This document shows positions 2,121-51,872 of a stretch of 64,000 bases of DNA, piece after piece. The first letter of the stretch is position 1; each line of letters starts with the position of its first letter. Under the pieces are notes generated by a model. That model did not search any database, was not told the origin of the DNA, and saw only the letters and a list, made by a program, of their open reading frames with translations. The stretch is from contig CALVAX010000009.1 of assembly GCA_944325605.1 (NCBI GenBank), forward strand, positions 1 through 64,000, read 5' to 3'. The position numbers and the translations under genes are program-made. This DNA is from Candidatus Gastranaerophilales bacterium. Its GTDB lineage: Bacteria > Cyanobacteriota > Vampirovibrionia > Gastranaerophilales > Gastranaerophilaceae.

Positions 2121-2351
2121 TTATTTAACAGTTATTATAAAGTCATAAATTTTGTCTATCTTCTCCTTCATTTCTCCAAAATTTTCCTTTAAGTCATTAA
2201 AACTGTGGATTGAAACAAATTTTTCCTCTATATCATCAATAATTTCTCTGTGCTTCTTCTCCAGCTGCTCAGGGGTTATCACAATCCGCTGCTGCACTAA
2301 AAATATCATCACCGCAACCAGTATCGGTGCATAATTAAGCAAATTTTCCAT
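2121..2351 (-). CDS. Small membrane protein with coiled coil, holin-like position
   Basis: About 76 residues starting MENLLNYAPILVAVMIF. One N-terminal hydrophobic helix (about residues 5-22) is followed by a charged coiled coil containing KKHREIIDDIEEKF and EKIDKIYDFI. I place the start at the ATG at 2351 because AGAGGA lies 9 nt upstream. A longer reading from a GTG at 2399 would overlap the stop of the lipase gene by 4 nt (GTGA). One TM helix plus a coiled coil, as last gene of a phage module that also codes an amidase, fits a holin or XhlA-like accessory, but sequence alone does not prove it. Confidence 0.6.
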   Translation of the reverse strand: MENLLNYAPILVAVMIFLVQQRIVITPEQLEKKHREIIDDIEEKFVSIHSFNDLKENFGEMKEKIDKIYDFIITVK

Positions 2352-2395
2352 CCTTAAATTCCTCTTATTATTTCTGCGCTCTAAAACAATGTCCT

Positions 2396-3109: not shown

Positions 3110-3136
3110 ATTTTCCCTTTCTTTAACTGTTCGTTT

Positions 3137-4426: not shown

Positions 4427-4471
4427 TATTTTTATTCCTTTTTGTTCACAGGGTAAAACAAGGTAAGAAAA

Positions 4472-4518
4472 AGGTGCCGCAATGAGGAGCCACAGATAGG
4501 AGAAAAATAGCGGCACCT
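4472..4518 (-). terminator. Long-loop hairpin with U-run between portal and terL
   Basis: Perfect 9-bp inverted repeat: AGGTGCCGC (4472-4480) and GCGGCACCT (4510-4518) with a 29-nt loop. On the minus strand the second arm is followed by TTTTTCTTACC, as expected for a factor-independent terminator. The loop is unusually long. It separates portal from large terminase and lies just upstream of the terL ribosome-binding site, so it could also be an attenuator or RNA processing site. Confidence 0.5.
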
Positions 4519-4554
4519 GAGAATATAAATAACTGATGTCAAAATAATCAGAAT

Positions 4555-6267: not shown

Positions 6268-6280
6268 CTTTTACCTTTCC

Positions 6281-6823
6281 TTAACTTATCCGCACAAATT
6301 TAGTGTCAGATTTCAAAAGTGAATAAACTTCCACATCCGCCAATTCTCCGTTTTTCAGGGTTTCTCCGCGCAAAACGCCGTCCTTTTTAAAGCCCGAATA
6401 TCTTAATATCGCTCTGACACGCGAATTAAACGGATAAATCTGTGCTTTTATTTTTTTAAACTTTAAAGTGTTAAAACAATAATCAAAAAATTTGTCTGCT
6501 GTGGATTTTACAAAATTTCCCCAGAATTTCTTTTCAAAACAAGCCGTGATTTCCCCGCCGTGAAGCTCTTTATTGTTTCCAATCAGGTTGTCGATATAGA
6601 TAAATCCTGCAAATTCACCGCTTTTTGAATCAAGAACAACAAAAAATAACCGTCCGCAGTTCTCTATTTTTGAAATTATTGTCTGATAATTTATGTCAGG
6701 TGCATAATCATCATTCAAAAACTTTGCATATCTTAAATATAAAAATATTACATTTGAAAGATATTCAACATTTTCAAAGCGTGAATGCACTCTGTCGATT
6801 ACAAGGTTCAGGAATTTACACAT
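6281..6823 (-). CDS. GNAT-family N-acetyltransferase in the phage module
   Basis: 180 residues with a RimJ/RimL-like GNAT pattern: the beta strand EFAGFIYIDNL, a charged helix (FVKSTADKFFDYCFNTL), then KKIKAQIYPFNSRVRAILRYSGFKKDGVLRG, where the N-x-R-x-x-x-x-L-x-x-x-GF signature is the usual acetyl-CoA/C-terminal GNAT motif (quoted here only as consecutive family elements). It overlaps the preceding gene by 16 nt and is followed closely by portal, so it is cotranscribed with structural genes. Acetyltransferases are occasional phage cargo; the acceptor could be a capsid protein, a host ribosomal protein or a small molecule. The Shine-Dalgarno is weak. Confidence 0.75.
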   Translation of the reverse strand: MCKFLNLVIDRVHSRFENVEYLSNVIFLYLRYAKFLNDDYAPDINYQTIISKIENCGRLFFVVLDSKSGEFAGFIYIDNLIGNNKELHGGEITACFEKKFWGNFVKSTADKFFDYCFNTLKFKKIKAQIYPFNSRVRAILRYSGFKKDGVLRGETLKNGELADVEVYSLLKSDTKFVRIS

Positions 6824-7179
6824 ACTTTTTCAAACTTTACATAAGCATCATCTGTTGAAAATGTGCTCAGTTCACCTTTCAAAATTTTTGCTCTTATGTT
6901 GTTCTGAAGCCCGAGGAGAGCATCTGCCTGAATTCCGTTAATATAAGTTTCCTGCTTGTTATGCCTGTTGTAATACTTGTAGACAGCATATTTTGAAAAC
7001 ACGTACCCGTCAGGAACATCTGCAATCTTTGTGTAAACCTTCTTTTCTCTTTTAGCTTTAAGCTCTTTTGCTCTTTTCATTTCATCCTGAAATTCGGTTT
7101 CGATTTTCATTCTGATTAAATCATCCAAAGATGCACTGCTCAAAAGCATTTCTTCAATATTTTCATCTTTGTTTTTCAT
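6808..7179 (-). CDS. Phage-module protein of unknown function
   Basis: 123 residues, not recognised. The N-terminus is acidic and helical (NIEEMLLSSASLDDLIRMKIE), followed by a Lys/Arg-rich helix (KRAKELKAKREKKVY) and a more globular C-terminal half with several Tyr (SKYAVYKYYNRHNKQETY). It lies between the small terminase and the GNAT gene on the same strand, overlapping the GNAT start. A gene between terS and portal is often a packaging accessory or DNA-binding protein. The basic helix would allow nucleic-acid binding, but this is only suggested. Confidence 0.65.
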   Translation of the reverse strand: MKNKDENIEEMLLSSASLDDLIRMKIETEFQDEMKRAKELKAKREKKVYTKIADVPDGYVFSKYAVYKYYNRHNKQETYINGIQADALLGLQNNIRAKILKGELSTFSTDDAYVKFEKVCVNS

Positions 7180-7198
7180 AAAAAATCTCCTTATTTAT

Positions 7199-7633
7199 CT
7201 AAATTTTGTCTTCATCAAGGTTTGAGATAGTAATAATTCTGGCATGACGGTATTCATCATCCTGATTTTCAGAATTAAATCCAAGGTATTTACAAAGACT
7301 TTCCAGAGCTTTAAGTCCGGCAGAAGTGTCCCTGAGTTTCTTTTTACCGGTATAATTACCTTCTTTATCCAGAACATCTTCTTCTTCCAGAGAAAATTCA
7401 GCTATTTGAAGAAGTTTTTGAATTACGTAGCCTTTATTTACCCTGAGGGAAGTTATCTGGCTTTTCAACTGTTCTTTTATTTCATTTATTACAAGTTTGT
7501 TTGAAAGAAGCTCGTTTGAAACTGCCTTTAAATCCTTTGATTTATACCCTGCTTTTCGGGCTGAAACCTCGCCGTCAAGCGACTTTATATACTCGGTCAC
7601 AAACCGTTTTTGCTGTTGTGTTAATCTGTTCAT
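7199..7633 (-). CDS. terS: Phage terminase small subunit
   Basis: 144 residues with the Terminase_2/XtmA pattern: N-terminal LTQQQKRFVTEYIKSLDGEVSARKAGYKSKDLKAVSNELLSN-like DNA-recognition HTH (the typical F-V-x-E-Y and A-x-x-AGY spacing), a central oligomerisation helix (LQIAEFSLEEEDVLDKEGN) and a conserved SAGLKALESLCKYLGF helix. It would bind the packaging site and hand DNA to the large subunit. It lies 139 bp from the connector gene, the largest gap inside the module, so a separate transcript may start here. Unusually, terS and terL are separated by three genes (unknown, GNAT, portal). Confidence 0.88.
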   Translation of the reverse strand: MNRLTQQQKRFVTEYIKSLDGEVSARKAGYKSKDLKAVSNELLSNKLVINEIKEQLKSQITSLRVNKGYVIQKLLQIAEFSLEEEDVLDKEGNYTGKKKLRDTSAGLKALESLCKYLGFNSENQDDEYRHARIITISNLDEDKI

Positions 7634-7772
7634 AATTTACATTTCTTAGTAAAGTTTGTACTTTTTGAAAAAAAATTGTATAATAATATTGCTATTTATA
7701 TTTCGGCTAGTGTAAATCTTAACAGGGGGCAATGAAAACTTCCTGTTTTTTTTGTCTTTTTTACACTGAAAC

Positions 7773-8411
7773 CTAATATCTGCGCATATTTACAAAAGGT
7801 GCAGCCTCTGAATCAACTGTAATTCTTGATCGCATGGAAGCAAGTGTACTGTTGTACATGCTCATCCAATAGCTGAATTTTACATGCTGCGGGTTTGCTT
7901 TTAAGCGCATACAGGTTCCGTAAACAATAACGGGTTCCGCAAATTCATCTGGAATTAACGACATGTCAGTTTCGGCTTCCAGAAGTTTCTTTTCTGTACC
8001 TTCAGCACTAATAACCGTATTGGCCGTATAATATACAACATTAACAGGTTTGTCTTTATCAAATTCAGGCATCAGGAGTTTGTCATTAAAACAGCTGTAT
8101 GTTCCTGAAGGTGCTTTGCCGTTAATAAAAACTTCCGGTTTGTCAAAATATTTGTATACATGCCCGTCTATCAAAATAGAGGCTATCCTTCCATATATAG
8201 TATTATCAATTTCCGTACTATTTGCCGGAAGATTAAGCGTGGTTTTCCTCAACTTAAAGTTCCAGTTATCATAATTGCAGACCTCGGTATTTACCAAATT
8301 GATTATGTTTTTAATCTTTTTATGATCGTTTTTGGTTAATTCAGAGAATGCATTAACCTGTTTGTAATTGAGTTCTGCCAGACATTTGTTTACTAAATCA
8401 AAATAATTCAT
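7773..8411 (-). CDS. Phage head-tail connector/adaptor protein
   Basis: 212 residues resembling podovirus-type adaptor proteins that bind below the portal. The N-terminal helices (FDLVNKCLAELNYKQVNAF and IKNIINLVNTEVCNYDNW) are the pattern seen in many phage 'tail tubular A-like' or gp4-like adaptors: a helix, an Asn/Asp-rich turn, then W-N-F-x-L. A beta-rich centre (TLNLPANSTEIDNTIYGRIASIL) and a C-terminal helix with FVNMRRY complete it. It is placed next to the scaffold and capsid genes. The assignment uses length, N-terminal pattern and context. Confidence 0.6.
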   Translation of the reverse strand: MNYFDLVNKCLAELNYKQVNAFSELTKNDHKKIKNIINLVNTEVCNYDNWNFKLRKTTLNLPANSTEIDNTIYGRIASILIDGHVYKYFDKPEVFINGKAPSGTYSCFNDKLLMPEFDKDKPVNVVYYTANTVISAEGTEKKLLEAETDMSLIPDEFAEPVIVYGTCMRLKANPQHVKFSYWMSMYNSTLASMRSRITVDSEAAPFVNMRRY

Positions 8412-8439
8412 ATTTTCTCCTTGAGTTGTTTTGAAATCC

Positions 8440-8465
8440 TGCGGACGGCAGAAATTCCGTCCGCA
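8440..8465 (-). terminator. GC-rich hairpin between scaffold and connector genes
   Basis: Inverted repeat GCGGACGG (8441-8448) and CCGTCCGC (8457-8464) with an 8-nt loop, in the 76-bp gap between the two genes. On the minus strand the stem is followed by AGGATTTCAAAAC, which lacks a strong U-run, so it may be an mRNA stability or processing hairpin instead of a full terminator. Confidence 0.5.
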
Positions 8466-8487
8466 AGATTTATTTAATTTGCCGTCA

Positions 8488-9177
8488 TTATCGGATTAAG
8501 CCCTTTCTTAATTGTTCCATTATTGCTTTTTCGTTTCTGGCAAATTCCGCACTGCTCATTCTGCCGATTTGCTCACGGGTAAATACCCTCGCATTTGCAT
8601 CTGCCGCATTGGAGTTTTGTGCATTTGCTCTTAACTTCTCTTTGGCGGCCTTGTTTTCGTCATTTATTGATTTCTCGTGAGCCTGTTTCTGCAAATACCC
8701 GTCAATCGCACCTTGTTCCAACGCTTCTACCATTTGGGATATCTGCTGAATTTCATCCTTGTCAACTACGGCATTTGAATTTTTCAAATATTCCAGTACC
8801 TGTTTTCGTCCGTTCTGGTTGAAGAATTCCGGATTTTCCTTCAAAAAGGCTTCTATCCCCGGAACTATTCCGCCTGCCGGAACGGCCTGAGGCATGGGCT
8901 GAATTTGCTTGGCTATAATCTGTTGCGCCTTATACAGTATATAGTTCATCAAATGTTGTCCTTGCACCGGATTGATAATGCCTGACTGCATAAGACTGCC
9001 GATTATATTCATATCTCTCATCGCAGTTTGTCTTATAGAGTCTGCACTTCCTGTTCCGGTATTTGACACGACAGCCCCTGCACCAGGGATAAAACCGGAT
9101 GCCGGATTATTCATCAAACCCGTTTGCTGAGGCACGGCAGCAGATGAAATTTGATTTAATGTATTTGTATTCATCAT
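8488..9177 (-). CDS. Phage scaffold-like protein
   Basis: 229 residues, almost entirely helical and polar, with a Pro/Gly/Asn-rich N-terminus (SSAAVPQQTGLMNNPASGF), Gln-rich helices and a basic C-terminal helix (SAEFARNEKAIMEQLRKGLIR). This composition, plus position next to the capsid gene, is that of assembly scaffolds, whose basic C-terminal helix binds coat subunits. There is a segment ENPEFFNQNGRKQVLEYLK. It follows capsid in transcription order, the reverse of the usual scaffold-then-capsid order. Function rests on composition and context. Confidence 0.65.
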   Translation of the reverse strand: MMNTNTLNQISSAAVPQQTGLMNNPASGFIPGAGAVVSNTGTGSADSIRQTAMRDMNIIGSLMQSGIINPVQGQHLMNYILYKAQQIIAKQIQPMPQAVPAGGIVPGIEAFLKENPEFFNQNGRKQVLEYLKNSNAVVDKDEIQQISQMVEALEQGAIDGYLQKQAHEKSINDENKAAKEKLRANAQNSNAADANARVFTREQIGRMSSAEFARNEKAIMEQLRKGLIR

Positions 9178-9202
9178 TGAATTCTCTCCTTATTTCTTTT
9201 AA

Positions 9203-9241
9203 AAAAGCACCCGTTGCCTAAACACGCCAGCGGGCGCTTTT
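9203..9241 (-). terminator. Rho-independent terminator after the capsid gene
   Basis: Arms AAAAGCACCCG (9203-9213) and CGGGCGCTTTT (9231-9241). Read on the minus strand the stem AAAAGCGCCCG/CGGGTGCTTTT ends in six T residues. It lies 20 nt past the capsid stop and before the scaffold gene, so capsid mRNA can end here and be made in excess. Confidence 0.75.
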
Positions 9242-9261
9242 ATATGTGAAAGCCTGCTTGC

Positions 9262-10158
9262 TTAACCTTCTAAGTCCTCAGAACCTGAATCCGTATCTGA
9301 TGATGAGGCAGGATCTTTGACTACCATTTTAGCGAGTGCTTTAGGCTGAACAGTTTTTGCACCATAAAGGTAAAGTCCTCTTACCAAATCTGAAAAACTG
9401 TCTTTATCACGCAAGCTTTCGATTTTTGCCAATTGTGATGCAAAAGTGATTGCATCGTTTGTACCTGCAAGAATATAGTAATTATTTGAAACCGGTGTTA
9501 GATTGGTACTAACAAGAACATCCATGCCGGCAATTCTACCGATTGCACCTTCCCTGAGAGTTTCATCCGCAACGTTATTTGCGCCGATAAATTCTGTGCT
9601 TTGAAGAAGATAAGATTCAACAAGAGGGTTAATAACAACCCACGGACGCTTACCTGCCTTCACTGCATTAGAATCCTTAAGTTTCATTGCTAAATTCACA
9701 AACTGCTGATAAATAGTTGTTTTATCAAGGGTTACAGGAGCAGAATCTGAGCCGACAATATTGTCTTCATCCACATTTGCATGCATTGAAAGAAGATAGG
9801 CATCCTGCACTTCTTCAATTGCATTTTTGGCATTTTGAAGATGGGCTTCCATAATATCTGTATTTGCCTGAACCTGCGCAACATCATTAATCTTAAATGC
9901 GAAGAACTTTTTCTGATCAATGACAAGATCTGTTGATGTCGGCTCTAATTCACTGTAAGAAATCGAACCAGTTGTTAGTGTTGAAATCGTTACAGGAGCC
10001 GGTGTAATGATTTTTACCTTGTCGCCCTGATTTTTAATTTCTCCTTCATAGTTTCTGTTGACACATTGAAGCATTACACACTCTTTTTCAAGCATGGTGT
10101 TTAGTTTTGCACTCCATATTTCAGGAATAAAAGCTGAGTAAGAATTTGTGTCTGTCAT
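9262..10158 (-). CDS. Phage major capsid protein
   Basis: 298 residues. The start TDTNSYSAFIPEIWSAKLN and the following GEIKNQGDKVKIITPAPVTI are characteristic of phage coat proteins of the HK97-fold group (an N-arm, then a G-D-x-V-x-I strand). Further features are QKKFFAFKINDVAQVQAN, the helix AIEEVQDAYLLSM, and VINPLVESYLLQS followed by a G-R-I-A-G-M-D-V-L-V-S-T-N strand typical of the A domain. The tail is Ser/Asp/Glu-rich. Start supported by AAGGAAAAAG upstream. It lies next to the scaffold-like gene and is followed by a clear terminator, so it is probably expressed strongly. Confidence 0.88.
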   Translation of the reverse strand: MTDTNSYSAFIPEIWSAKLNTMLEKECVMLQCVNRNYEGEIKNQGDKVKIITPAPVTISTLTTGSISYSELEPTSTDLVIDQKKFFAFKINDVAQVQANTDIMEAHLQNAKNAIEEVQDAYLLSMHANVDEDNIVGSDSAPVTLDKTTIYQQFVNLAMKLKDSNAVKAGKRPWVVINPLVESYLLQSTEFIGANNVADETLREGAIGRIAGMDVLVSTNLTPVSNNYYILAGTNDAITFASQLAKIESLRDKDSFSDLVRGLYLYGAKTVQPKALAKMVVKDPASSSDTDSGSEDLEG

Positions 10159-10219
10159 GATTTTCTTTTTCCTTTCTTGGTTTTCAAAGTGTAAGTACTA
10201 TTTATATAAATGAGCAGCG

Positions 10220-11740
10220 CTAGTCATCGTTATATATTTCCCGGAATTGAAGCCCGATAATTGCCACATTTTCAGTCTGTTCCGAGCCTTCCACACACAG
10301 CTGCACGGCATAGTTGGATTCTGAGATTTCAGCCTTTTCAAGCACATCTTTATTTGCCGGCCAAACCGGAATATCAGCATCATCTTCGGCCCAGTGGCAG
10401 GGCAGATTGTCAGAAGTTTCATCGTCCGCCCAGATTAATTGATCGTAATGCACTGAATAAATCTTTTCCGGATCATCACCTAACTGACTGTCATAGTCTT
10501 TGTAAACAGAAAAATTAAAGTTGTTATCATAAGCATCATCCAGAATAAAATAAAATTCATCAATCACTTTTTTATGGTGCGGAGAACCGATTGAAAGGAA
10601 TGGAGATTTCCACATAAAATCAATCGGAACACCGTTGAATGTTGACCCGTAAGCCTCCCTGTAAATTTTTCCGGTATTGTCAGCCGTCACAACATAATTG
10701 TCAAACAAAGCTGCTGTTGTAACATTTTGCGGCACGACCCTTTTGTACCAGGCCTTATTCACATAATCGTTTATCCAGATAGTTTTGTAGTAATCCTCCG
10801 CAATATACGGAAGGAAAAACCACATTTGATTTTTATTTTCGTAATGCACACAGACAGCTTCGGAAAGTTTACTTGTATTAAGGTTGTCAAACTCCGGTTT
10901 TATTTTGAGCGAAATCTCTGAACCAAGCTGGATTTGGTTAAGTTCCCCGACCTGTTCAAGCGCATATATACCGGAAGACAGAAAATACTGTTTGTTATCC
11001 ACATTCACAACGCATCCGGGTGCAACAGTTCCTCTGTCGGCAAACGGAACTATTGCAAAATCATCAGGGCTTGTTCCGGTCAGCAGATAAACCATATTCT
11101 TCTTGTAAATCGCAAGATAATCCTTGTAAGATTTTAATGCTGTAATCTCTGCCGTATCTGTATGAAAATCGCTTATATATCCGGCGTCATTCTGGGTTGT
11201 AAAATCCGTGTAAGAGCCAAGAGCTGAATAATAAATAGTAGACTGGCTTGCAACCCACACACGGCTTTTGTAAACCGTCAAAACATCTCCTGTTACGGTT
11301 ATACCAGATGCATTTTTAAGATTACATTCAACAACACTGAATGAGGAATCATTTTTTATATAAAACAATCCGTCACTTTCGGTTATTACAAGTACGCCGT
11401 TTAAAAACGAGGCAAACCGGGGCTTTTTACCTTTTAATGTCTTATTAAGTTTTGTCATTGCGCCATTTTGAGGATTGTAGACATAAACTTTTCCTGAAAT
11501 AGTTGTTATAACAAGTTTTACATCATCTCTGTAAAACATTTCGTGAAGTCCGGTTATCGCATCATTATCAGGGACAGAGCAAAGCAAACTGTTGCCTGCC
11601 TGTTTTACAATTCCTCTGTTTTTGTATATTTCAACATTTTTGCTGTCCGACCAGTACATCTTTTTTGTATCAATTCCCAGCTCTGTCTTAGTGAGCGCAA
11701 AATTAATCCCGCCGGATAAATCGTAAAAATCTGTTTCCAT
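10220..11740 (-). CDS. Phage beta-propeller-like hub/tail-stabilisation protein
   Basis: About 506 residues, rich in beta strands with repeated short blades (KLVITTISGKVYVYNPQNG, NGVLVITESDGLFYIKN, KSRVWVASQSTIYYSAL, YLAIYKKNMVYLLTG), the composition of P22 gp10-like hub proteins that plug the portal after packaging. The start METDFYDLSGGIN at 11740 is chosen over an upstream ATG at 11773 because AGAGG lies a few nt upstream and the DLSGG motif is the usual N-terminus of this group. The gene begins 2 nt after the amidase stop, so the two are probably translationally coupled. The C-terminus ends in a third beta-rich domain (VQLCVEGSEQTENVAIIG). Confidence 0.65.
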   Translation of the reverse strand: METDFYDLSGGINFALTKTELGIDTKKMYWSDSKNVEIYKNRGIVKQAGNSLLCSVPDNDAITGLHEMFYRDDVKLVITTISGKVYVYNPQNGAMTKLNKTLKGKKPRFASFLNGVLVITESDGLFYIKNDSSFSVVECNLKNASGITVTGDVLTVYKSRVWVASQSTIYYSALGSYTDFTTQNDAGYISDFHTDTAEITALKSYKDYLAIYKKNMVYLLTGTSPDDFAIVPFADRGTVAPGCVVNVDNKQYFLSSGIYALEQVGELNQIQLGSEISLKIKPEFDNLNTSKLSEAVCVHYENKNQMWFFLPYIAEDYYKTIWINDYVNKAWYKRVVPQNVTTAALFDNYVVTADNTGKIYREAYGSTFNGVPIDFMWKSPFLSIGSPHHKKVIDEFYFILDDAYDNNFNFSVYKDYDSQLGDDPEKIYSVHYDQLIWADDETSDNLPCHWAEDDADIPVWPANKDVLEKAEISESNYAVQLCVEGSEQTENVAIIGLQFREIYNDD

Positions 11741-11742
11741 AC

Positions 11743-12240
11743 CTAAACCTCTTTCATTTTTGCTTTGTACCATCTGATTTTTGAACGTATAAAGTCCCCT
11801 GCCTCATTTTTGCCAACCCATGGATACGGCGGAATATAAGTAATATCAGGCTTGCCGTAACTGGTTGTAGAAGGATGCCGGATGCCGAATTCATAATGCG
11901 TCATAACTCCGGATTTATCAGTCTTTAGCCCGTATTTAAGAACAATTCCGGCTGATAATTGCATTGCGGCTTCAAATTGAATAGGTGTTATAGGATACTT
12001 TCCGCAATGTTGTCTGTCCTGAAAACCTTCCATTGCGCATAGAGCAATCCCGATTGAACCGGTATTTCCGCCTCCGGTGTGTGCAGCATAACAGCCTTTT
12101 ACACATACAAGATTATCCTCCGGCCTGAATTTTCCCTTATAAATCCTTCCGTCCCCGCATACCAAAAAATGATAATAGTTCCTCTCTGCTGCCGTCGGAT
12201 AATATTCTCCGGCAGTCCAGTGTAATATAATTCTTTTCAT
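11743..12240 (-). CDS. N-acetylmuramoyl-L-alanine amidase (Amidase_2 endolysin)
   Basis: 165 residues with the AmpD/PGRP-type zinc amidase fold. Zinc ligands and catalysis: His7 in ILHWTAGE, His122 (about) in GIRHPSTTS and Asp132 in KPDITY, with Lys130, spaced as His154/Lys162/Asp164 of AmpD. The central AAHTGGGNTGSIGIALCAM is typical. It has no signal peptide, as expected for a lysin released by a holin. It is the second gene of the phage module. It would cleave the amide between MurNAc and the stem peptide during lysis. Confidence 0.9.
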   Translation of the reverse strand: MKRIILHWTAGEYYPTAAERNYYHFLVCGDGRIYKGKFRPEDNLVCVKGCYAAHTGGGNTGSIGIALCAMEGFQDRQHCGKYPITPIQFEAAMQLSAGIVLKYGLKTDKSGVMTHYEFGIRHPSTTSYGKPDITYIPPYPWVGKNEAGDFIRSKIRWYKAKMKEV

Positions 12241-12248
12241 AGCTTGTC

Positions 12249-12464
12249 CTAACTTTTTTTGTTTTTTTTAAACAGTTTTGAATTGTCTACAAAAAATAAA
12301 ACTGCAGCATTGACCCGGTTTTTCGCTTTTAATTTCATAATTATCCTTGTTATATGAGTCTGAACCGTACGCTCGGAAATCCTCAATTTAACACCGATTT
12401 CTTTATCGGAATAGCCTTGAGCAACCAAAGTCAAAACATTAAGTTCCTTTGGCGATATATTCAT
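12249..12464 (-). CDS. LuxR-type (GerE) HTH regulator, single domain
   Basis: 71 residues made almost only of a LuxR C-terminal HTH: SPKELNVLTLVAQGYSDKEI, then ISERTVQTHITRIIMKLKAKNRVNAA, with the conserved T-V-x-x-H recognition helix. No receiver domain or sensing domain. It is the first gene of the module, 8 nt before the amidase, and has AAGGAATTAAG upstream of its ATG. A stand-alone HTH of this kind as leader of late phage genes could activate the module, or respond to the host. The basic tail (KLFKKNKKS) may add non-specific DNA affinity. Confidence 0.8.
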   Translation of the reverse strand: MNISPKELNVLTLVAQGYSDKEIGVKLRISERTVQTHITRIIMKLKAKNRVNAAVLFFVDNSKLFKKNKKS

Positions 12465-13874: not shown

Positions 13875-15221
13875 ATGCAAAACATTGACGACAGCAGATT
13901 AATTGACCTGAAACAGAGGGTTAAGGAAAAACTGAATGAAACGACACTTTTTAAGTTTAAAGGAACGGTATCAAAGCTTCTGGGCCTGACAGTAGAAGTC
14001 AAACTTCCGGGACTTAAAATCGGTGATTTATGCTACATTGAAACTGAAACAGGAGAGAAAAAACCTGCGGAAGTCGTAGCATTTAAAGGAGAAGCGGCGC
14101 AGCTGCTCTTACTTCTTGACGGAAACGGAATTGGTCAGGGAAGCTTAGTCACATCAATGGGAAAACCGATTATTATACCTGTCGGGGACTTTCTTCTTGG
14201 AAGACTTATAAACCCTATGGGAGAACCGATTGACGACAAGCCTCTTGATACAACGGGAGCAGTCTGGAAACCGATAGAAGGGCCGCCGCCCGGGCCTTTT
14301 GAAAGACCTATTATTACCGAAATATTTTCAACAGGAGTCAGGGCAATCGACAGCTGCATGACAATGGGCTGCGGACAGCGTCTGGGCTTGTTTGCAGGGT
14401 CAGGGGTCGGCAAAAGTACGCTTCTTGGCATGATTGCGAGAAATTCTGACGCAGACGTCAACGTTGTTGCGCTAATCGGAGAACGCGGCAGGGAAGTTAA
14501 AGAGTTTGTAGAGGATTCTCTCGGTGAAGAAGGTATGAAAAAATCCGTTCTTGTCTGCTCTACGGGCGACCAGCCGCCTTTGATAAGACAAAAAGCTTTA
14601 CTTACAGCCACTGCCGTTTGTGAATACTTCAGAGATCAGGGCAAAAAAGTTTTCCTTATGACAGATACAGTAACCCGTTGTGCAATGGCGGGCCGCGAAG
14701 TCGGGCTTTCAATCGGGGAACCGCCGACTATGAAAGGTTATCCGCCGTCTATTTTTTCATGGCTTCAAAAAGTTCTTGAAAGAGCCGGAAACAGCCCGAA
14801 AGGGTCTATAACCGCACTTTATACGGTTTTGATGGAAGGCGATGACATCTCAGACCCGATTGTCGACATTGTAAGAGGTATTGTCGACGGGCACATATTC
14901 TTGTCGCGTAAAGTTGCAGAGATGAACCACTACCCTGCAATCGACGTTCTTGGAAGTATTTCAAGGCTTATGTCAGCAATTGCAACACCCGAACACAAGG
15001 CCGCGGCAGGAAAAATGCGTGCGATTATGGCTCTTTACAGGGAAAACAAGGACTTGATTGATGTCGGTATGTACCAGCCCGGAACCAACCCGAAACTTGA
15101 TATAGCAATCGAAATGATGCCAAAAATCAATGCCTTTCTGCAGCAGAGAACTTCAGATATTGTAAGTATGGACACAACGGTCAGCACGCTTGTTGAGATG
15201 ATGAAGGATGTGGATATTTAG
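13875..15221 (+). CDS. fliI: FliI/SctN-family type III export ATPase
   Basis: 448 residues, the usual length of flagellar/type III secretion ATPases. N-terminal beta barrel (about 20-90), then the FliI-like GDFLLGRLINPMGEPID, Walker A GLFAGSGVGKSTLLGMIAR (Gly/Lys at about 174-181), ALIGERGREVKEFVED, the Walker B region VFLMTDTVTRCAMAGREVGL and SIGEPPTMKGYPPSIFSWL, and a helical C-terminal domain. These signatures separate FliI/SctN from F1 and Rho. It would energise and unfold export substrates at a type III gate. No flagellar gene flanks it: zupT is on the left, a small unknown gene on the right. It may act with the soluble FlhA C-domain protein at 31273-32748. Its promoter suggests a leaderless mRNA. 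Confidence 0.93.
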   Translation: MQNIDDSRLIDLKQRVKEKLNETTLFKFKGTVSKLLGLTVEVKLPGLKIGDLCYIETETGEKKPAEVVAFKGEAAQLLLLLDGNGIGQGSLVTSMGKPIIIPVGDFLLGRLINPMGEPIDDKPLDTTGAVWKPIEGPPPGPFERPIITEIFSTGVRAIDSCMTMGCGQRLGLFAGSGVGKSTLLGMIARNSDADVNVVALIGERGREVKEFVEDSLGEEGMKKSVLVCSTGDQPPLIRQKALLTATAVCEYFRDQGKKVFLMTDTVTRCAMAGREVGLSIGEPPTMKGYPPSIFSWLQKVLERAGNSPKGSITALYTVLMEGDDISDPIVDIVRGIVDGHIFLSRKVAEMNHYPAIDVLGSISRLMSAIATPEHKAAAGKMRAIMALYRENKDLIDVGMYQPGTNPKLDIAIEMMPKINAFLQQRTSDIVSMDTTVSTLVEMMKDVDI

Positions 15222-30492: not shown

Positions 30493-31269
30493 ATGAAATA
30501 TTCACAAAACGGCGAACAATACCATATAGGCTTGAAAGAAGGCGACGCCGGAAAATATGTAATTTTACCCGGCGACCCGAAACGATGCAAAAAGATTGCA
30601 GAATATTTTGATAACGCTGAACTTATTGCAGACAGGCGCGAATACACAACCTATACAGGATACCTGAACGGCGAAAAAGTAACAGTAACATCAACCGGTA
30701 TAGGCGGGCCTTCAGCGTCTATCGCCTTAGAGGAACTTGTGAAAATCGGCGCAGAAAAATTCATCCGTGTCGGAACCTGCGGCGGCATTGATATCAACGT
30801 AAAAGGCGGAGATATTGTAGTTGCAACAGGAGCCGTCAGAATGGAAGGGACATCCAAAGAATATGCGCCGATAGAATTTCCGGCAGTTGCGGATTTGGAT
30901 ATAACCAATGCGCTCGTTGAAGCATGCAAAAAATTAAATAATCCGTTCCATACCGGAATAGTTCAATGTAAAGATTCTTTCTACGGACAGCACAGCCCTG
31001 AAAAATCTCCCGTCAGTTATGACTTGATTAACAAATGGGAAGCATGGAAACGGTTGGGCTGCAAAGCTTCCGAAATGGAATCTGCAGCACTGTTTGTGGT
31101 CGGAAGTGCTTTGAATGTTAAGGTAGGATCTGTATTTCTGACAGTAGCAAATCAGGAAAGAGAAAAGCTGAATCTGGATAATCCTGTAATACATGACACA
31201 GACAAAGCAATAAAAACCGCAATTGAAGCATTAAAAATTCTAATCGAAAAAGATAAAAATCAGGAGTAA
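30493..31269 (+). CDS. udp: Uridine phosphorylase
   Basis: 258 residues of the nucleoside phosphorylase NP-I family: [20 protein letters not shown] (phosphate loop G-D-P-x-R), [38 protein letters not shown], and [16 protein letters not shown] with the ribose-binding M-E. Homohexameric enzyme converting uridine and phosphate to uracil and ribose-1-phosphate. Start has AAAGGATTTT upstream. It ends 3 bp before the FlhA C-domain gene, whose Shine-Dalgarno lies within its last codons, so the two are translationally coupled although functionally unrelated. Confidence 0.93.
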
Positions 31270-31272
31270 AAA

Positions 31273-32748
31273 ATGTTTAATAAAAAAATGCAGTATATTA
31301 TAAAAACCTGTTCCGGAGAAAACATGCAGGAACTTCAAAATCTTCTGAATGAAATGTCCATGAACGGCTGGGAATTATACAGCATGAATGAAGTGGAAAC
31401 AGATGACGGTGTAAAATTTAACTGCATTTTTATGAGCGAAACCCAGCAGGAAGAAGATCTTTCAACATCTGACGTTATAAACATTTCGACCTTCAAAAGC
31501 CAGATGGAAAAAATGCTCTCCCCGCAGCTTTCGCCTTACGAAGCATGCCTTGATATTCAATCAAAAATCAAAAGCCAGCAAAATAAAATTACAAAAATAA
31601 AAAAAGAACTTGAAAAAGAAGCCCCAGCTTCAGTTAACCGAAAAAAACTTAACGACAAAATTTCGGCAAACTTGAAAGAACTTGACGATTTAAAATTGAA
31701 GCTGGCAAAAACGACATCTCCTGATGTTATGTTTGAAAAATTAACAGAAGAAAAACTATCAATTCATTTGAGTGAAGAACTTATTGAATATGTAGAAAAT
31801 GAATCCGAAGATGCTCAGGAAACTCTTCTTGCTGAAACTGTAAAATCAAGGCTGAAATTAACGGAAGAATTGGGCTATGTTATCCCTAAAATTATTTTTC
31901 AGGATGATGACAATCTGAACCCGTATGAATTTTCAATAAAAATTCGCGGCATGGATGTATATAGAGCATGCGTTTATCCAAATTACACAATGTACTTTGC
32001 TGACGAACTTCACCTGGAAAATAAAATCAAAAATTCCATTTACGATACAGACTTTATAACAGGCAAAAAAATTGTCTGGATTGAAAAAAGCAAAACAAAA
32101 GACTTTTGGGAAAAAGGAATAAACGGTGCAGAATTTATCGCAAGAGCACTGGAATATTCAGCAATCAGATATATAGACGAATTAATGGACTACAGCGACA
32201 TTGAAAAATATATAGATGTCGTAAGTAAAAAGAATGAATTTCTTGTTGCAAACCTGATTCCTGATTTTATAACACTTTCGGATCTCAAATTTGTCCTGAC
32301 CAGCCTGATAAAAGAAAGAGTTTCAATAAAAGACATAACCTATCTTTTTGAAAAAATGAACGATTTTGCAGAAGAAGGCGCAAAATCAGATCTTCTGAAA
32401 AAAGTCCGCTTGGCGCTTTCCAGAAAAATATGCTCAAAATACGCAAACGAAAACGGAGTAATAAGCCTTATAGAAGTTTCTGAAAAAACACTGGATGCGT
32501 TCATGCCGAATTTTGAAGAAGATGATGATTTTATAATAAAAATTGACGGGGATTTTGCGGAAAAACTTGCACAAAAAATCTCGAAAAAGGCAAAACAACT
32601 GGAAATAGAAACACCCAAAATTCTCGTACCTCTGGAATTAAGACATTTGTTTTTCACACTTCTTTCAAACTACCTGAATAACGTTGCTGTTCTGGCAAGA
32701 GAAGAAATCGGCTGCAATTTTGGAATAGAAATTGTTGCAAATGTTTAA
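31273..32748 (+). CDS. Soluble FlhA/SctV C-terminal domain protein with DUF4177-like N-terminus
   Basis: 491 residues, no TM helix. N-terminus (about 5-60) resembles DUF4177 (MQYIIKTCSGENMQELQNLL, NGWELYS). A coiled linker follows (about 95-150). From about residue 190 to the end it follows the cytoplasmic ring domain of FlhA in order: LTEELGYVIPKIIFQDDDNL (FlhA: A-x-E-x-G-F-x-x-P-x-x-x-x-R-D-N), PYEFSIKIRGMDVYR, LIPDFITLSDLKFVLTSLIK, ERVSIKDITYLFEKM, KKVRLALSRKICSKYA and ETPKILVPLELRHLFFTLL. The normal eight-helix gate domain is absent. FlhA ring domains form nonamers that receive chaperone-substrate complexes. Here a free ring could act as a cytosolic docking hub, perhaps with the FliI-type ATPase. 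Coupled to udp. Confidence 0.88.
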   Translation: MFNKKMQYIIKTCSGENMQELQNLLNEMSMNGWELYSMNEVETDDGVKFNCIFMSETQQEEDLSTSDVINISTFKSQMEKMLSPQLSPYEACLDIQSKIKSQQNKITKIKKELEKEAPASVNRKKLNDKISANLKELDDLKLKLAKTTSPDVMFEKLTEEKLSIHLSEELIEYVENESEDAQETLLAETVKSRLKLTEELGYVIPKIIFQDDDNLNPYEFSIKIRGMDVYRACVYPNYTMYFADELHLENKIKNSIYDTDFITGKKIVWIEKSKTKDFWEKGINGAEFIARALEYSAIRYIDELMDYSDIEKYIDVVSKKNEFLVANLIPDFITLSDLKFVLTSLIKERVSIKDITYLFEKMNDFAEEGAKSDLLKKVRLALSRKICSKYANENGVISLIEVSEKTLDAFMPNFEEDDDFIIKIDGDFAEKLAQKISKKAKQLEIETPKILVPLELRHLFFTLLSNYLNNVAVLAREEIGCNFGIEIVANV

Positions 32749-32798: not shown

Positions 32799-34856
32799 AT
32801 GCGCATCACAGGAATTAATAACGGAATACAAAACAACTACACAACCTTCGGCAGACGTCCGACAAAAGAAGAAGAACCAGACCTTCAAAAAGCCATGGAA
32901 GATGGTTTCAAAGCAATAGGCACAGACCAGCGTATTGCAATAACCCATGGTTCGGTTTTTCCTGCTGTTGGAAGGGATTCGTTTATCGGCTCCCCGTACG
33001 GAGAAGGTGCCACAAAATGGATTAACTTTCTAAAACTGTACGGATTTAACGGAAACCAATTAGGCCCTAACGGAATGATCCTGTATGATGATAAAAATTA
33101 TTCTCCATACAATTCATCAGCCCTCAATGAAAACTTTCTTTTCATAGATCTCAAACCACTCACAACAGAAAAATACGGAAAAATTTTATCTGAAGAAAGT
33201 TATGAAAAGTTAACCGTTCCGGCTGAGGCAGATGATAAAGCTTACAGATTTTCAAACTTTTCTGAAGCTAAATTTGTATATTTTCAGGCTTTAAATGAAA
33301 GCTACAAAAACTTTAAAGCAAATCTTGCAAAAGGCCAGCCCGAAGCAATTCAGCTAAACAAAGAATTTGAAGAATTTAAGAAACAAAAAGGTAAACAAAC
33401 CGAAGAAGAAGGGATTTATCGGGTATTAACAACATTATACGATGACGAAGACTGTGACAATTGGCCGGAATATGATTCTGATTTAATGGTTCAAATCAGG
33501 CAAAAAGACCCTAAAGCAGAAAAACGCTATGAAACTATCAAAAAAAGATTTCACAAATCAATTGAGGAATACCAGTTTGAACAGTTTATCGTAACAAAAC
33601 AAATAAAAGAAAACAAAGCATACCGTGACAGCATTGGATTCACCTATTTTTCAGATCTTCTTGTCGGATTGTCTAAAATGGATTACTGGCGCTACAAAGA
33701 GGCTTTCCTGAAAGGATATTATATGGGGGCCCCTACAGACGATGCAACAAAACCGCACCAAACCTGGGGAATACATGTAATAAATCCGCAAAAACTTTTC
33801 ATTGATAAAGACCAATTAAACATCGGCGGAGAATTTTTAAGAGAAAAACTAAGACATGCGCTTGAAAACTGCGAAAATATTCGAATTGACCACCCGATGG
33901 GAATGATTGAACCGTTTGTGTACCGTGGTGATTCTTTACAATATGATGAGAACGGAAAACAAATAAAAGATGCCCTTTATGTCCGCTATCTTTCCCAGTT
34001 GTTTGAAGCCGGAACGCCGATAGATAAATATTCTGATTATGAAAAGATTATGACCAGAATTGTACTCCCTACATTAAAAGAAAAAAACATAACGGATAAA
34101 AATGCTCCTGTCTGGGAAAATTTATGCAGCGAACCAACATTATTTAAAAAAGTTTATTATGAACAAAACAATCTTCCTCACATGATTATGCTCGACTACA
34201 AACGGGGGAAAGACTACAACAATCCAGATGACTGGTATTTGCTAGGATCACACGATTCAATACCGGTATTAAATATGCTTAAAAGACACGGCGGAAATAT
34301 AAGAAATGAAGAAGCCTGGAATCCATTATATCTTGCAGGTTACCTGAATCAGGATACAAAAAGAATAGACGAAAACGTTGAATTTTGCAATACTATTTCA
34401 AACACCTTCCCTGACAAAACGCCAAAAACAGGGGTTGACCTTGCTAAAGCGGATATGGCAATGGTTCAGGCAAAATTTGCAGAACTTCTTTTAAAGAAAA
34501 AGATTCAAATATCATTTGCTGATATCTTAGGCATCACAGACAACGGAGTTGTCTACAACATAGGAGGAGAAAGCAACCCTGTGTTCTGGAAAGAAAGACT
34601 TGCTCCTGACTTTGAGGATAAATATTACGAAAACCTATCCAGCGAAACCCCGACAGCACTTAACATGCCGGAAGTTTTAAAAATTGCTCTGCAAGCCTCA
34701 ATCGACCGCCAGCTTGTAGATTACATGAACCAGATGGAAAATGATCCGCAAAAAGATATAAAAACAACTCAAAAAAGAGAGGAACTGTATGCCCAATACG
34801 GTCAACTCCTTGAAAAGCTTCAGCATTATGCCGATGTTTTAAAAGAAAAAGAATAA
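32799..34856 (+). CDS. malQ: GH77 4-alpha-glucanotransferase, divergent, with N-terminal tag
   Basis: 685 residues. The first 25 (MRITGINNGIQNNYTTFGR) are the lineage-specific tag; then a divergent GH77 barrel begins (HGSVFPAVGRDSFIGSPYGE, NFLKLYGFNGNQLGP). Catalytic residues can be placed: nucleophile Asp in NIRIDHPMG (about 364), acid/base Glu in VWENLCSEP (about 439), and third Asp in GSHDSIP (about 485), matching R-I-D-H, E-D-L-G and T-H-D of amylomaltases. The insert between the first and second motifs is long. It transfers maltooligosaccharide units between glucans. Starting right after the FlhA-domain gene, it has its own TGGCAA motif. Ends in a strong terminator. Confidence 0.82.
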   Translation: MRITGINNGIQNNYTTFGRRPTKEEEPDLQKAMEDGFKAIGTDQRIAITHGSVFPAVGRDSFIGSPYGEGATKWINFLKLYGFNGNQLGPNGMILYDDKNYSPYNSSALNENFLFIDLKPLTTEKYGKILSEESYEKLTVPAEADDKAYRFSNFSEAKFVYFQALNESYKNFKANLAKGQPEAIQLNKEFEEFKKQKGKQTEEEGIYRVLTTLYDDEDCDNWPEYDSDLMVQIRQKDPKAEKRYETIKKRFHKSIEEYQFEQFIVTKQIKENKAYRDSIGFTYFSDLLVGLSKMDYWRYKEAFLKGYYMGAPTDDATKPHQTWGIHVINPQKLFIDKDQLNIGGEFLREKLRHALENCENIRIDHPMGMIEPFVYRGDSLQYDENGKQIKDALYVRYLSQLFEAGTPIDKYSDYEKIMTRIVLPTLKEKNITDKNAPVWENLCSEPTLFKKVYYEQNNLPHMIMLDYKRGKDYNNPDDWYLLGSHDSIPVLNMLKRHGGNIRNEEAWNPLYLAGYLNQDTKRIDENVEFCNTISNTFPDKTPKTGVDLAKADMAMVQAKFAELLLKKKIQISFADILGITDNGVVYNIGGESNPVFWKERLAPDFEDKYYENLSSETPTALNMPEVLKIALQASIDRQLVDYMNQMENDPQKDIKTTQKREELYAQYGQLLEKLQHYADVLKEKE

Positions 34857-34915: not shown

Positions 34916-35731
34916 CTAATCTCTGTGAGTACCGATTTGATAACCCGGAACGCACAGGAATGCGGGAACTGTTCTTGTGATAGCTGTAGAAAGCGGAGAT
35001 TTATCAGCCATCAGAGTAACAGCCATACTCAAATCGTCCACATGCGGGGCAAAATCAGTTTTCTTAATTTTTCTATCCACATGTTTGTGGTAAATTTTTT
35101 CATTTATGAAATTAGAAAGTTTATTTCCGCCGACGATACCCGCCCCAAGCGCTGCAAGCGTCATTGCGGCTGACGGGATAACTTTTAAAGCTTTATTAAA
35201 ATATTTAACAGATTTGCTGAAAACTTCTCCGGAAGCCTGAGGCACACAGCTTAAAATCTGACGTTTATATTTATCATAAAGTCTTGACACTCCGCCGACA
35301 CAGATAACCGGCACAAGAACGTTACCCAGAAGCTGATTTACAGTTTCACGGAGTTTACTCTTAAAATGTTTTTTATCATCAAATACAGTCCCTCCTGCAA
35401 GCCCGCCCGCTGCAGAACCTGCGGCCAAAGCAAGAATTTGCGGCTCTTCTATTTCCATCAATTTTGCGTCGGGCTTATGTTTATTAAATATTTTCAACAT
35501 AGCCCAATTTTTTGGACTTTGCGAAAAAATAACTTTCGGATTCATTAAAAATCCCTGTTTTTTGGCAATTAAGGCTGAAGCAACACCAACACCTGTCATA
35601 GAAGATAGAAGGACACCTGTTTTATTAAGATTTTTCTCTTTCTTAAACTTATCATGCCTGCTATTTTTTGAGGTAAATGCTGCCTGATTATAATTTGGCT
35701 GTATATTTGAATTCACTTGACTTATTGGCAT
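34916..35731 (-). CDS. Tagged membrane protein of unknown function
   Basis: 271 residues. N-terminus MPISQVNSNIQPNYNQAAFT carries the tag, followed by a basic stretch (SRHDKFKKEKNLNK). Four or so hydrophobic, Gly/Ala-rich segments follow (GVLLSSMTGVGVASALIA, LALAAGSAAGGLAGGTVF, LLGNVLVPVICVGGVSRLY, AAMTLAALGAGIVGG). No domain recognised. It has AAGGTGG upstream of the ATG and the shared motif at 35757-35785. It is divergent from the 529-residue protein, which has the same upstream motif; both may belong to one regulon. Confidence 0.7.
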   Translation of the reverse strand: MPISQVNSNIQPNYNQAAFTSKNSRHDKFKKEKNLNKTGVLLSSMTGVGVASALIAKKQGFLMNPKVIFSQSPKNWAMLKIFNKHKPDAKLMEIEEPQILALAAGSAAGGLAGGTVFDDKKHFKSKLRETVNQLLGNVLVPVICVGGVSRLYDKYKRQILSCVPQASGEVFSKSVKYFNKALKVIPSAAMTLAALGAGIVGGNKLSNFINEKIYHKHVDRKIKKTDFAPHVDDLSMAVTLMADKSPLSTAITRTVPAFLCVPGYQIGTHRD

Positions 35732-38216: not shown

Positions 38217-38657
38217 ATGCAGGTTACAGCCATATCAAATTCACAATCAAATCAGCAAAACTTTCAAGGAAAAATTAATATTGTTAATGATTTAAGTTAT
38301 CTTCCCTGTAAATATGTAAGAAAAGCTTATAGTTCAATGGAAGAAATGATTAAAGACAAACCGTTTGATTTATTTATAAGACAAAACCACCAGAACAAAT
38401 CAATTAGCATTATAGCTAAAAAACCGGGACACTTAGGTAAAATAAACAAACCATTTACGGAAAGCATAATAACTAATGCTTCAACCATGGATGAAGGGAA
38501 CGATACTGTTGATTTATATACTTCAGTAGCCAGAGAAACAATCAAAACTTATGACAAAGCATTCCCGCAAATCTCAACGGGACAAAAGATAAAGAATTTT
38601 TTTAATAAACTCAGTGATAAATTTTTAAACACATTTCAAGATAAAGATGAAATATAA
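38217..38657 (+). CDS. Small tagged protein of unknown function
   Basis: 146 residues: MQVTAISNSQSNQQNFQGKI is one of the clearest tags. The body is soluble and basic (YVRKAYSSMEEMIKDKPFDLF, SISIIAKKPGHLGKINKPF, YDKAFPQISTGQKIKNFFNK). No TM segment and no cleavable signal. ATAAGGAG upstream. It lies 20 bp after the radical SAM gene and 31 bp before the acyl-CoA synthetase, all on the same strand, so it is cotranscribed with metabolic genes. Confidence 0.75.
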   Translation: MQVTAISNSQSNQQNFQGKINIVNDLSYLPCKYVRKAYSSMEEMIKDKPFDLFIRQNHQNKSISIIAKKPGHLGKINKPFTESIITNASTMDEGNDTVDLYTSVARETIKTYDKAFPQISTGQKIKNFFNKLSDKFLNTFQDKDEI

Positions 38658-43004: not shown

Positions 43005-43679
43005 ATGAAAATTTCAGCAATAAAGTATCAAACAAATCCGCAGCAGCATTTTACCGGAGAAAATTCGAAAAACAGACTTAAAAATGCCGCAGGTGCCGCA
43101 GCCATTGCTATTGCCGCATCAGCACCGATGGCTGAAGCTGAAGCGCAATATTTTGTGCCATACACTCCATATTATTACAGCTATGTACAGAAACCCACAG
43201 TTACAAATGTTCCGAACTGTTTTGTAGTCGGTGATATTACAAACTCAAATTCAGACGACAAATCTATGCGTCAGGTTTTCAATGAAATTGATAGAAACGG
43301 AAATTCTAACGGCGTTATTTCTGCAAAAGAAGTAATGCTTACGGAACAGAAAAACTGGAATGAAAAAAGTTTATACCCATACACGGATGAGCAAATGGCT
43401 GATGATGCAATTCAATTTAACACTATCTCAAAAATGTACAATGAAGAGGGTTCAGATCCCGCAACGATGAATTATCGGGAATACAAGTCTGCAATGACTG
43501 ATTATATGGAAAACAAAAATGTTAATACATTCATTGATCTTATGCAAATTCTGACAATTCCGTACCTTTACACACCGCCATACTATTATTATCCAAGACC
43601 TCACTACCACAGACCTTACGGCCCGCCACCGCCGCCGCGCCATCATCACAGACACGACGGCTATCACAGGCACTGGTAA
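43005..43679 (+). CDS. Tagged protein with EF-hand-like loop and His/Pro/Tyr-rich tail
   Basis: 224 residues. MKISAIKYQTNPQQHFTGEN is the tag. A short Ala-rich hydrophobic segment follows (AAGAAAIAIAASAPMAEA), then QYFVPYTPYYYSYVQKP. The centre has an EF-hand-like calcium loop EIDRNGNSNGVISAKEV (two residues longer than canonical), and the last 45 residues are PYYYYPRPHYHRPYGPP and RHHHRHDGYHRHW, which could bind metal. No other domain known. The upstream sequence TGGTCTAAAACTTACGGGGG is a weak match to the shared motif. Convergent with the next gene, 7 bp apart. Confidence 0.75.
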   Translation: MKISAIKYQTNPQQHFTGENSKNRLKNAAGAAAIAIAASAPMAEAEAQYFVPYTPYYYSYVQKPTVTNVPNCFVVGDITNSNSDDKSMRQVFNEIDRNGNSNGVISAKEVMLTEQKNWNEKSLYPYTDEQMADDAIQFNTISKMYNEEGSDPATMNYREYKSAMTDYMENKNVNTFIDLMQILTIPYLYTPPYYYYPRPHYHRPYGPPPPPRHHHRHDGYHRHW

Positions 43680-43686
43680 TTTTTAG

Positions 43687-44376
43687 CTAAATTATATCTG
43701 AAATATCACTTATATTGACAGCTGGTGTTGGGTTTGAAAAACCGAACTCTGCAATTAAAGTTTCAATTTCCCGCGCAAGATCCGGACTGCAGAAGGATTT
43801 TATTGCATTCAAATCGTGTGCAATACTAACCGGATTTACGTCTATTTGTTGTGCTTCATAATCGCTCGATGATGAATTGGGCGGTAAAACCGGCACTTTT
43901 TCCCGAACTTGATACATCGGCCAACCGGATTGCGCAGACATCTTCTTAATCAGTTCTAAAACACCCATCAAATCTTTTGCAACCTGATCATATACTTCCT
44001 GTTTTTTAGGTCTGTAATCTTCACCTTTTTCTTTGGAAATCGTTGCTCTTGCCAGTGCTTCATGCTTTTTAACAACAGCCTCTGCATTTTCCTTTGATTT
44101 TCTGGTTTTAAAATCGCTGAAGGATTCTTCATTTTCCTGCGGTGCAGAAGTTTGCACTGAGGAAGTTTCTGCGGCTTCGCTATTGGTGGTCGTTTCCTTG
44201 ACTGCCGGATTTTTGTCTTCTTGTAATTCTAATTTGTCGAATTTAGACAAATTTTCACCTTCTTTTAGTTTTTTCTGCGGAAAAACGTCTATTTTATTGT
44301 CAATCAATTTATTTACCGCGGTTCCTGATTCTCCGGTAAAAAATAAAGCACTAACTGAATCTATTGGTCTTGTCAT
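43687..44376 (-). CDS. Tagged hydrophilic protein of unknown function
   Basis: About 229 residues. Start at ATG 44376 with AAGGAG 7 nt upstream (an ATG 18 nt earlier is less likely). The N-terminus MTRPIDSVSALFFTGESGTA has a short tag ending FFTGE. The body is disordered and charged (about 25-110), then helical (VYDQVAKDLMGVLELIKKMS) and ends VNISDISDII. No signal or TM. Function unknown. Confidence 0.7.
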   Translation of the reverse strand: MTRPIDSVSALFFTGESGTAVNKLIDNKIDVFPQKKLKEGENLSKFDKLELQEDKNPAVKETTTNSEAAETSSVQTSAPQENEESFSDFKTRKSKENAEAVVKKHEALARATISKEKGEDYRPKKQEVYDQVAKDLMGVLELIKKMSAQSGWPMYQVREKVPVLPPNSSSSDYEAQQIDVNPVSIAHDLNAIKSFCSPDLAREIETLIAEFGFSNPTPAVNISDISDII

Positions 44377-44477
44377 TAGATATACTCCTTTCATAGCTTA
44401 ATATACTTCACTCGAGTTTTCGAAATCTCTCATATTTCTATTAAGTTTTTCTGCCCGTATAAATTGACACGACCCCT

Positions 44478-46951: not shown

Positions 46952-47055
46952 AAACTTGTGACTTGCGCGGCTTGCACGCTGAAAGTTGCATAATGATTAT
47001 AAGCAAACGCAATCATCTTATCCTTTAAACAATCATCAAACTGATTGCCTAATTA

Positions 47056-50061
<3,006 letters not shown>

Positions 50062-50350
50062 GTACTTGCTGTCACTTGCGTGACTGCAGTATTTGGAATC
50101 ATTGATGATTACGTATCTTTATACATTTGATAACAGTTGTTATTTAATGTTTATACGCTTATAATCTTATGCAATTTTCAATGTGCAATGAGTGAATACA
50201 CACTCAGAACAAAATAGTCTGAAAACAACTTTATTAATTCAGCCTCCATTATCTCTAAAATGATTTGCATAAAAAGAGATAACTTCAACAGCTTCGACCT
50301 TGGGATGGAGGCTAATTTTAAAATGCATCAGCATTACCTCAATCTCCCTA
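50062..50350 (-). other. 16S-23S internal spacer without tRNA
   Basis: About 289 nt. No tRNA-Ile or tRNA-Ala cloverleaf is seen. It contains AT-rich sequence and a GCCTCCAT...ATGGAGGC inverted repeat (about 50241-50312) typical of rRNA processing stems. Confidence 0.7.

Positions 50351-51872
<1,522 letters not shown>

Follow-up and report, generated by a model that had tools for sequence, protein, structure and literature searches.

The gene considered here lies in a 64,000-nucleotide stretch of a Candidatus Gastranaerophilales bacterium genome (assembly GCA_944325605.1, contig CALVAX010000009.1, positions 1 to 64,000), referred to below as the window, and encodes a 491-residue protein that we call S. 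In known flagella and injectisomes, FlhA or SctV is one membrane protein that forms a homononameric ring. S is, as judged from its sequence, a soluble protein carrying the C-terminal cytoplasmic domain of FlhA (FlhA-C) and no predicted membrane helices. Its association with a second flagellum-like type III secretion system (T3SS), labelled T2 to distinguish it from the true flagellum (T1), is well supported. We suggest, at roughly even confidence, that S is a FlhA-ring-domain paralog working with T2 as an accessory or regulatory ring or adaptor subunit.

The open reading frame (ORF) of S is intact and starts with an ATG codon 3 nt past the stop of a nucleoside phosphorylase gene. The original prediction, made from the sequence, had described a FlhA C-terminal domain without its membrane gate, and profile, fold and hydropathy searches all agreed with it. 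Residues 130-480 matched positions 321-653 of the 657 positions in the FHIPEP profile (PF00771; E 5.2e-49, 167.8 bits, gathering cut-off 29.1), and all 20 orthologs matched it too. Since the match was confined to these positions and 1-320 were unmatched, S lacks the membrane half. The FlhA profile TIGR01398 gave 154.6 bits over the same C-terminal half and the SctV profile TIGR01399 gave 91.1 bits, neither reaching its equivalog cut-off (772.1 and 692.25, respectively). A hydropathy scan of S found no peak above 1.6 and no segment of transmembrane (TM) strength, where the FlhA of the same genome shows seven. Every match of S in a PDB sequence search was a FlhA-C or SctV-C domain (best 3mix, E 1.9e-24), and the profile of the S family reached E 3.2e-49.

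An AlphaFold2 model built on 20 orthologs (pLDDT 81, pTM 0.64) placed a beta-alpha-beta-beta domain at residues 6-56, followed by a low-confidence link, a helical hairpin at residues 88-147 and a FlhA-C fold from about residue 150 to 491. With this model Foldseek recovered 6ch2 (E 2.3e-22), and the VIA comparison aligned 329 residues of the FlhA-C part with the nonameric FlhA-C structure 7amy (Z 29.7, rmsd 2.6). The FlhA-like region was therefore present as predicted, but it starts near residue 150 and not 190. The C-terminal domains of the SctV proteins InvA, MxiA, YscV, EscV and CdsV have the same fold as S (Z 21.6-28.3). Unlike S they are membrane-anchored, and in sequence S is nearer to FlhA.

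The N-terminal part could be classified less firmly. DUF4177-like is a fair description of the first 57 or so residues, as the original prediction had it, but the match to DUF4177 (PF13783) stayed below the Pfam gathering cut-off (14.4 versus 25 bits, E 0.046). Weak matches were found in 11 of the 20 orthologs at E up to 0.1, the best at E 0.0033. The GW[ED]L motif recalls DUF4177 and the Sp36 family (NF053529), and the beta-alpha-beta-beta arrangement, seen for S in the model, may be a further similarity. However, S falls below both curated cut-offs, the two profiles span 65 and 50 positions, and here the stretch is joined to FlhA-C. For the N-terminal part, no PDB structure matched at E 0.001, and a PDB fold search with the first 150 residues gave nothing significant; the best Foldseek match (E 2.3e-3) was to PadR via the hairpin, and the best structural Z, 10.1, is usual for helical hairpins. 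A FliJ-like identity of the hairpin was also considered and found no support from sequence or fold. Among 20 orthologs, mean pairwise identity was highest in the N-terminal domain (0.52), followed by FlhA-C subdomain SD3 (0.51), and lowest in SD4 (0.31). Residues L25, N26, M28, W33, I52 and F53 of the N-terminal domain were invariant.

The nearest orthologs in named genomes belong to the order Gastranaerophilales. Of the 193 sampled Gastranaerophilales genomes returning any match to the S profile, 192 gave E <1e-137 with S at nearly its whole length, genome G015 being the exception. In the other orders of the class the profile reached only E 1e-78 or weaker, and the matches, where inspected, were these genomes' own FlhA-type proteins. 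In a FHIPEP search of 58 genomes of the order, S was absent from G015, G016 and G055. The orthologs kept the whole architecture at 33-95% identity and were also present in flagellated relatives. Between congeners, dN/dS was 0.04-0.07 (0.027-0.029 for the hairpin where calculable). S is under strong purifying selection and is not debris.

Two kinds of full-length FlhA were detected in the order by FHIPEP search, T1 at about 860-890 bits and T2 at about 670-730 bits. Flagellin was found in 29 of 59 genomes, and the genus of the present genome lacks it. Among 28 genomes compared, the flagellin-bearing ones had two FliF and two FlhB proteins (T1 and T2), and the flagellin-less ones, including this one, had a single full-strength FliF and FlhB each, of the T2 kind; FliP followed the same pattern with few exceptions. 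Genomes with T2 only and no flagellin, in this genus and in others, keep S. Between the genera compared, T2 FlhA shows 86-91% identity and is thus strongly constrained in species without flagella. By gene content, T2 is a T3SS distinct from the true flagellum and is retained where flagellin is missing. The idea that the free domain serves another purpose was in this respect partly borne out, S appearing to belong to this system.

Of the export partners sought in the same genome (an assembly of 30 contigs), FlhB, FliP, FliQ and FliR were found and are of the T2 kind. FliE, FliF, a protein at the FliG position, FliH and FlhA are encoded at locus L005 (6936-13053), and a FliM/N-like protein, FliO, FliP, FliQ and FliR at L075 (8265-11982). 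FlhB is found at L187 (6281-7378) and FlgB, FlgC and FlgF/G-like rod proteins at L186 (5045-7376). The assignments of FliQ, FliR and some of the rod genes were made by eye, using position and sequence. The parts of T2 (MS ring, export gate, ATPase and rod genes) are thus scattered over several loci. The sole FliI-level match of the genome (TIGR01026) is the T2 ATPase gene, 16 kb upstream of S. The two genes were 11-17 kb apart in all 13 genomes in which both were seen on one contig, from families f1 and f7.

In the available excerpts of earlier work, two flhA genes are listed for one Melainabacteria genome by Di Rienzi et al. (PMC3787301) and partial flagellar gene sets for other members of the order by Soo et al. 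(PMC4040986). These sets come from the same order and are treated in those excerpts as flagella or remnants, with no second T3SS lineage or free FlhA-C described. Lysobacter enzymogenes is comparable in being non-flagellated and keeping FlhA, FlhB, FliI, FliP, FliQ and FliR (PMC7277350). T2 differs in being a separate FlhA lineage that coexists with a true flagellum in relatives, and the excerpt of that paper mentions no soluble FlhA-C. Among open-licence papers, we found no description of a soluble FlhA paralog, a gate-less FlhA-C or a T3SS in Melainabacteria or Gastranaerophilales.

In a tree of the FlhA-C domain with 11 S sequences, the outgroup consisted of four FlhA-C sequences from other phyla and the T1 FlhAs of the class. 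The outgroup formed one side (100/100), and the T2-type FlhAs of the class, S and a further protein, F, formed the other (100/100). S was monophyletic (100/100) and lay inside the T2-type FlhA clade. The tree identifies S as a descendant of a T2-type FlhA and excludes an origin of its domain from true flagellar (T1) FlhA.

F is a second FlhA-C protein of the same genome, 595 residues long, and is found in several genomes of the genus. Its N-terminal domain and that of the T2 FliG-position protein are homologous (hhalign E 9.7e-18), a connection between extra FlhA-C modules and T2. Two hydrophobic segments follow, probably the last FlhA helices, and then a FlhA-C without the stretch assigned to SD2. 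Elsewhere in the class, at L180 and L179, a FlhA-C protein apparently without TM helices is derived from the local T2-type FlhA (100/99), although it runs to the contig ends. L181, L182 and L183 encode small proteins with only SD1- and SD3-like parts. Gate-less or re-anchored FlhA-C has thus arisen several times on the T2 side, and this adds weight to the view that T2 may employ FlhA-C subunits of a separate kind. Truncated FlhA-C proteins were recorded at L181:6567-7424, L182:5037-5684 and 6804-7520, L183:3001-3750, L174:4998-5867 and L180:7803-8726, one of them directly downstream of a T2 flhA gene.

Chaperones dock on FlhA in a dimple between domains D1 and D2 that includes D456, F459 and T490 (PMC5932034, PMC8166844). 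The FlhA-L linker of one subunit binds its neighbour and stabilises the ring (PMC8166844, PMC8213127), and GYxLI is a switch motif (PMC9431611). We compared these sites in 21 S orthologs, using Salmonella FlhA numbering. T1 and T2 FlhA have an aromatic residue at 459 (Y or F in the type of this genome), T (or S) at 490 and H at 491. In S the aromatic residue at 459 was lost in 21/21 orthologs (T, S, N or L instead) and T at 490 was likewise missing from all of them. H at 491 occurred in no more than two rows, from a divergent family, with other residues elsewhere, so that the T-H pair was intact in none. The position of D456 was mostly kept (D260 in S). The G of GYxLI, kept in T2 FlhA, was replaced by S in 20 of the 21, and the third position was E in all. 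The linker of S still carries the T2-type motif [S]PxxM[YF], whose P150 never varies, in common with T2 FlhA and F. Relative to FlhA, S therefore has the whole cytoplasmic domain (SD1-SD4) but no TM gate, dimple or GYxLI, and it has gained an N-terminal domain and hairpin and scores far below the equivalog cut-off. A flagellar-type docking cleft is lacking in SctV as well (PMC5932034). With ring-type features kept and the docking cleft lost, an accessory or regulatory ring subunit would fit better than a substrate hub.

We suggest that S arose by duplication of a T2-type FlhA, followed by loss of the eight-helix gate and gain of the N-terminal beta-alpha-beta-beta domain and helical hairpin. 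S may form a FlhA-C-like ring of its own, or insert into or stack on the T2 FlhA ring, through SD1, SD3 and the T2-type linker. It would load no substrates itself, because the chaperone dimple is gone, and it could either change the number of docking sites offered by T2 or tether a partner through its N-terminal domain. That S forms a ring, touches T2 FlhA and has a regulatory role are our inferences. We further propose, tentatively, that Vampirovibrionia possess a second flagellum-derived T3SS with a hetero-oligomeric platform, in which gate-bearing T2 FlhA would be joined by the order-specific soluble S and the genus-level re-anchored F, with docking sites lost. If so, T2 would to our knowledge be the first T3SS with a FlhA/SctV ring built from or controlled by separate FlhA-C proteins. 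A soluble ring domain strongly conserved across an order without a docking cleft would be a natural test of the role of the ring beyond gate and chaperone docking. It would also suggest that what non-motile gut Gastranaerophilales, a widespread gut lineage, carry as "partial flagellar gene sets" is a separate conserved secretion system and not the leftovers of a flagellum.

That S is a decaying FlhA fragment, be it a pseudogene left by a lost flagellum or an artefact of assembly, is very improbable. Flagellin has been lost in the genus and G018 does contain a broken piece of FlhA, but the near full-length conservation of S across the order, its low dN/dS and its presence in flagellated relatives refute decay, pseudogenisation and frameshift alike. 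A frameshifted TM domain was looked for upstream, and the phosphorylase gene was found there. The original prediction also offered a split gate, with S as the cytoplasmic half of FlhA and the membrane half encoded elsewhere. Solely the missing TM half of S speaks for this. The one full-length FlhA of the genome is intact (701 residues, G000:C17), no TM-only FHIPEP fragment was found in this genome, and across the order S coexists with one or two complete FlhAs. A split gate is hence refuted at the sequence level and its chances are minimal.

The original prediction also raised a cytosolic hub; on this reading S would bind T3SS chaperone-substrate complexes and pass them to the gate or hold them. 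S keeps all four FlhA-C subdomains in the model, SD2 included, and mostly keeps D456, which hydrogen-bonds the chaperone tyrosine. SctV proteins probably dock their partners on another surface (PMC5932034), and S could have a different docking site too. However, the positions of F459, T490 and H491 are degenerate in S and kept in T1 and T2 FlhA, and the glycine of GYxLI is nearly always replaced; with the aromatic residue and the T-H pair lost in every ortholog, such a hub is rather improbable. Repurposing of S outside secretion, as a scaffold or adaptor no longer serving any T3SS, is unlikely. The unrelated, lineage-specific neighbours of S in most families, its new N-terminal domain and the loss of export-critical motifs are consistent with it. 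On the other hand, S strictly co-occurs with T2 in the order, has T2 fliI or hook genes linked to it in two families, and retains the linker motif and SD3. S might also be an inhibitor or decoy that competes for FliH, FliI or FliJ, or poisons the ring of T2 FlhA. T2 would then be kept inactive until the N-terminal domain received a signal. Ring features kept together with a lost docking site are the pattern expected of a dominant-negative subunit, and we give this reading a small chance.

Several findings weigh against an accessory or regulatory role of S in T2. S sits on a long branch (1.51), with support of only 93/81 for its exact sister. All genomes of the order carry T2, so the presence of S is inseparable from that of T2 within the order. 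G015, G016 and G055 have T2 without S, which may therefore be non-essential to the system. Outside f7 the direct neighbours of S are lineage-specific non-T3SS genes. In f7 the genes directly following S are fliJ-fliK-flgD-flgE, a placement that speaks for a T3SS connection. These hook genes look like those of the true flagellum and probably belong to it, so a link of S to T1 is possible there.

Table 1. Features of S, its surroundings and F. Positions refer to the window unless a locus is named.
Feature	Position	Strand	Evidence
S, free-standing FlhA C-terminal-domain protein, 491 aa	31273..32748	+	FHIPEP match, AlphaFold2 model, PDB matches, conservation
N-terminal beta-alpha-beta-beta domain, residues 6-56, DUF4177-like	31288..31440	+	AlphaFold2; DUF4177 sub-threshold
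Antiparallel helical hairpin, residues 88-147, just before linker region	31534..31713	+	AlphaFold2 pLDDT 82-95
Linker motif S-P-D-x-M-[FY]-E, residues 149-155, FlhA-L counterpart	31717..31737	+	Alignment, residue counts
FlhA-C fold, SD1-SD4, about residues 158-491	31744..32745	+	VIA Z 29.7 to 7amy
Degenerate chaperone-docking dimple	32050..32148	+	Residue comparison; dimple defined in PMC5932034, PMC8166844
Nucleoside phosphorylase, directly upstream of S	30493..31269	+	PF01048 E 2.3e-44
FliI-type ATPase of T2, 16 kb upstream of S, same strand	13875..15221	+	TIGR01026 548 bits; T3SS_ATPase_C E 1.7e-27
F, second FlhA-C protein in the same genome, 595 aa	L006:7707-9494	-	N-domain homology, hydropathy, alignment

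The upstream phosphorylase gene and S are probably co-transcribed, and this neighbour is not conserved across families. A conserved gene neighbourhood was considered as a clue to function and set aside, the neighbours of S being constant only within families. A scan for promoters and terminators found signals no more common than in shuffled sequence. A prophage-like block on the minus strand (2121-12464), with a terminase (PF04466) and a capsid protein (PF25209), ends near the T2 fliI gene.

Unrelated ORFs share the pattern M-x-I...(N/S/Q-rich)...[N/S/T/H]F-x-[G/S/K] within their first 25 or so residues, which is possibly an export signal. They were found in the window (32799-34856, 34916-35731, 38217-38657, 43005-43679 and 43687-44394), at L075:13188-13610 and at L199-L204. 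A regular expression for the pattern, devised post hoc, matched 5 of the 343 ORFs in two T2 genomes, where shuffling gave about 0.5, and none of the 182 in T3SS-less f8 genomes. At 192-1958 on the minus strand of the window, a 588-residue protein without a Pfam match starts with MGLAASQARFLAITARKANCEFQSMQIAQQ; this start looks like that of a secreted coiled-coil protein, and the protein is a possible T2 substrate. The region at about 47000-51500 contained only short, spurious-looking ORFs and is probably a ribosomal RNA operon.
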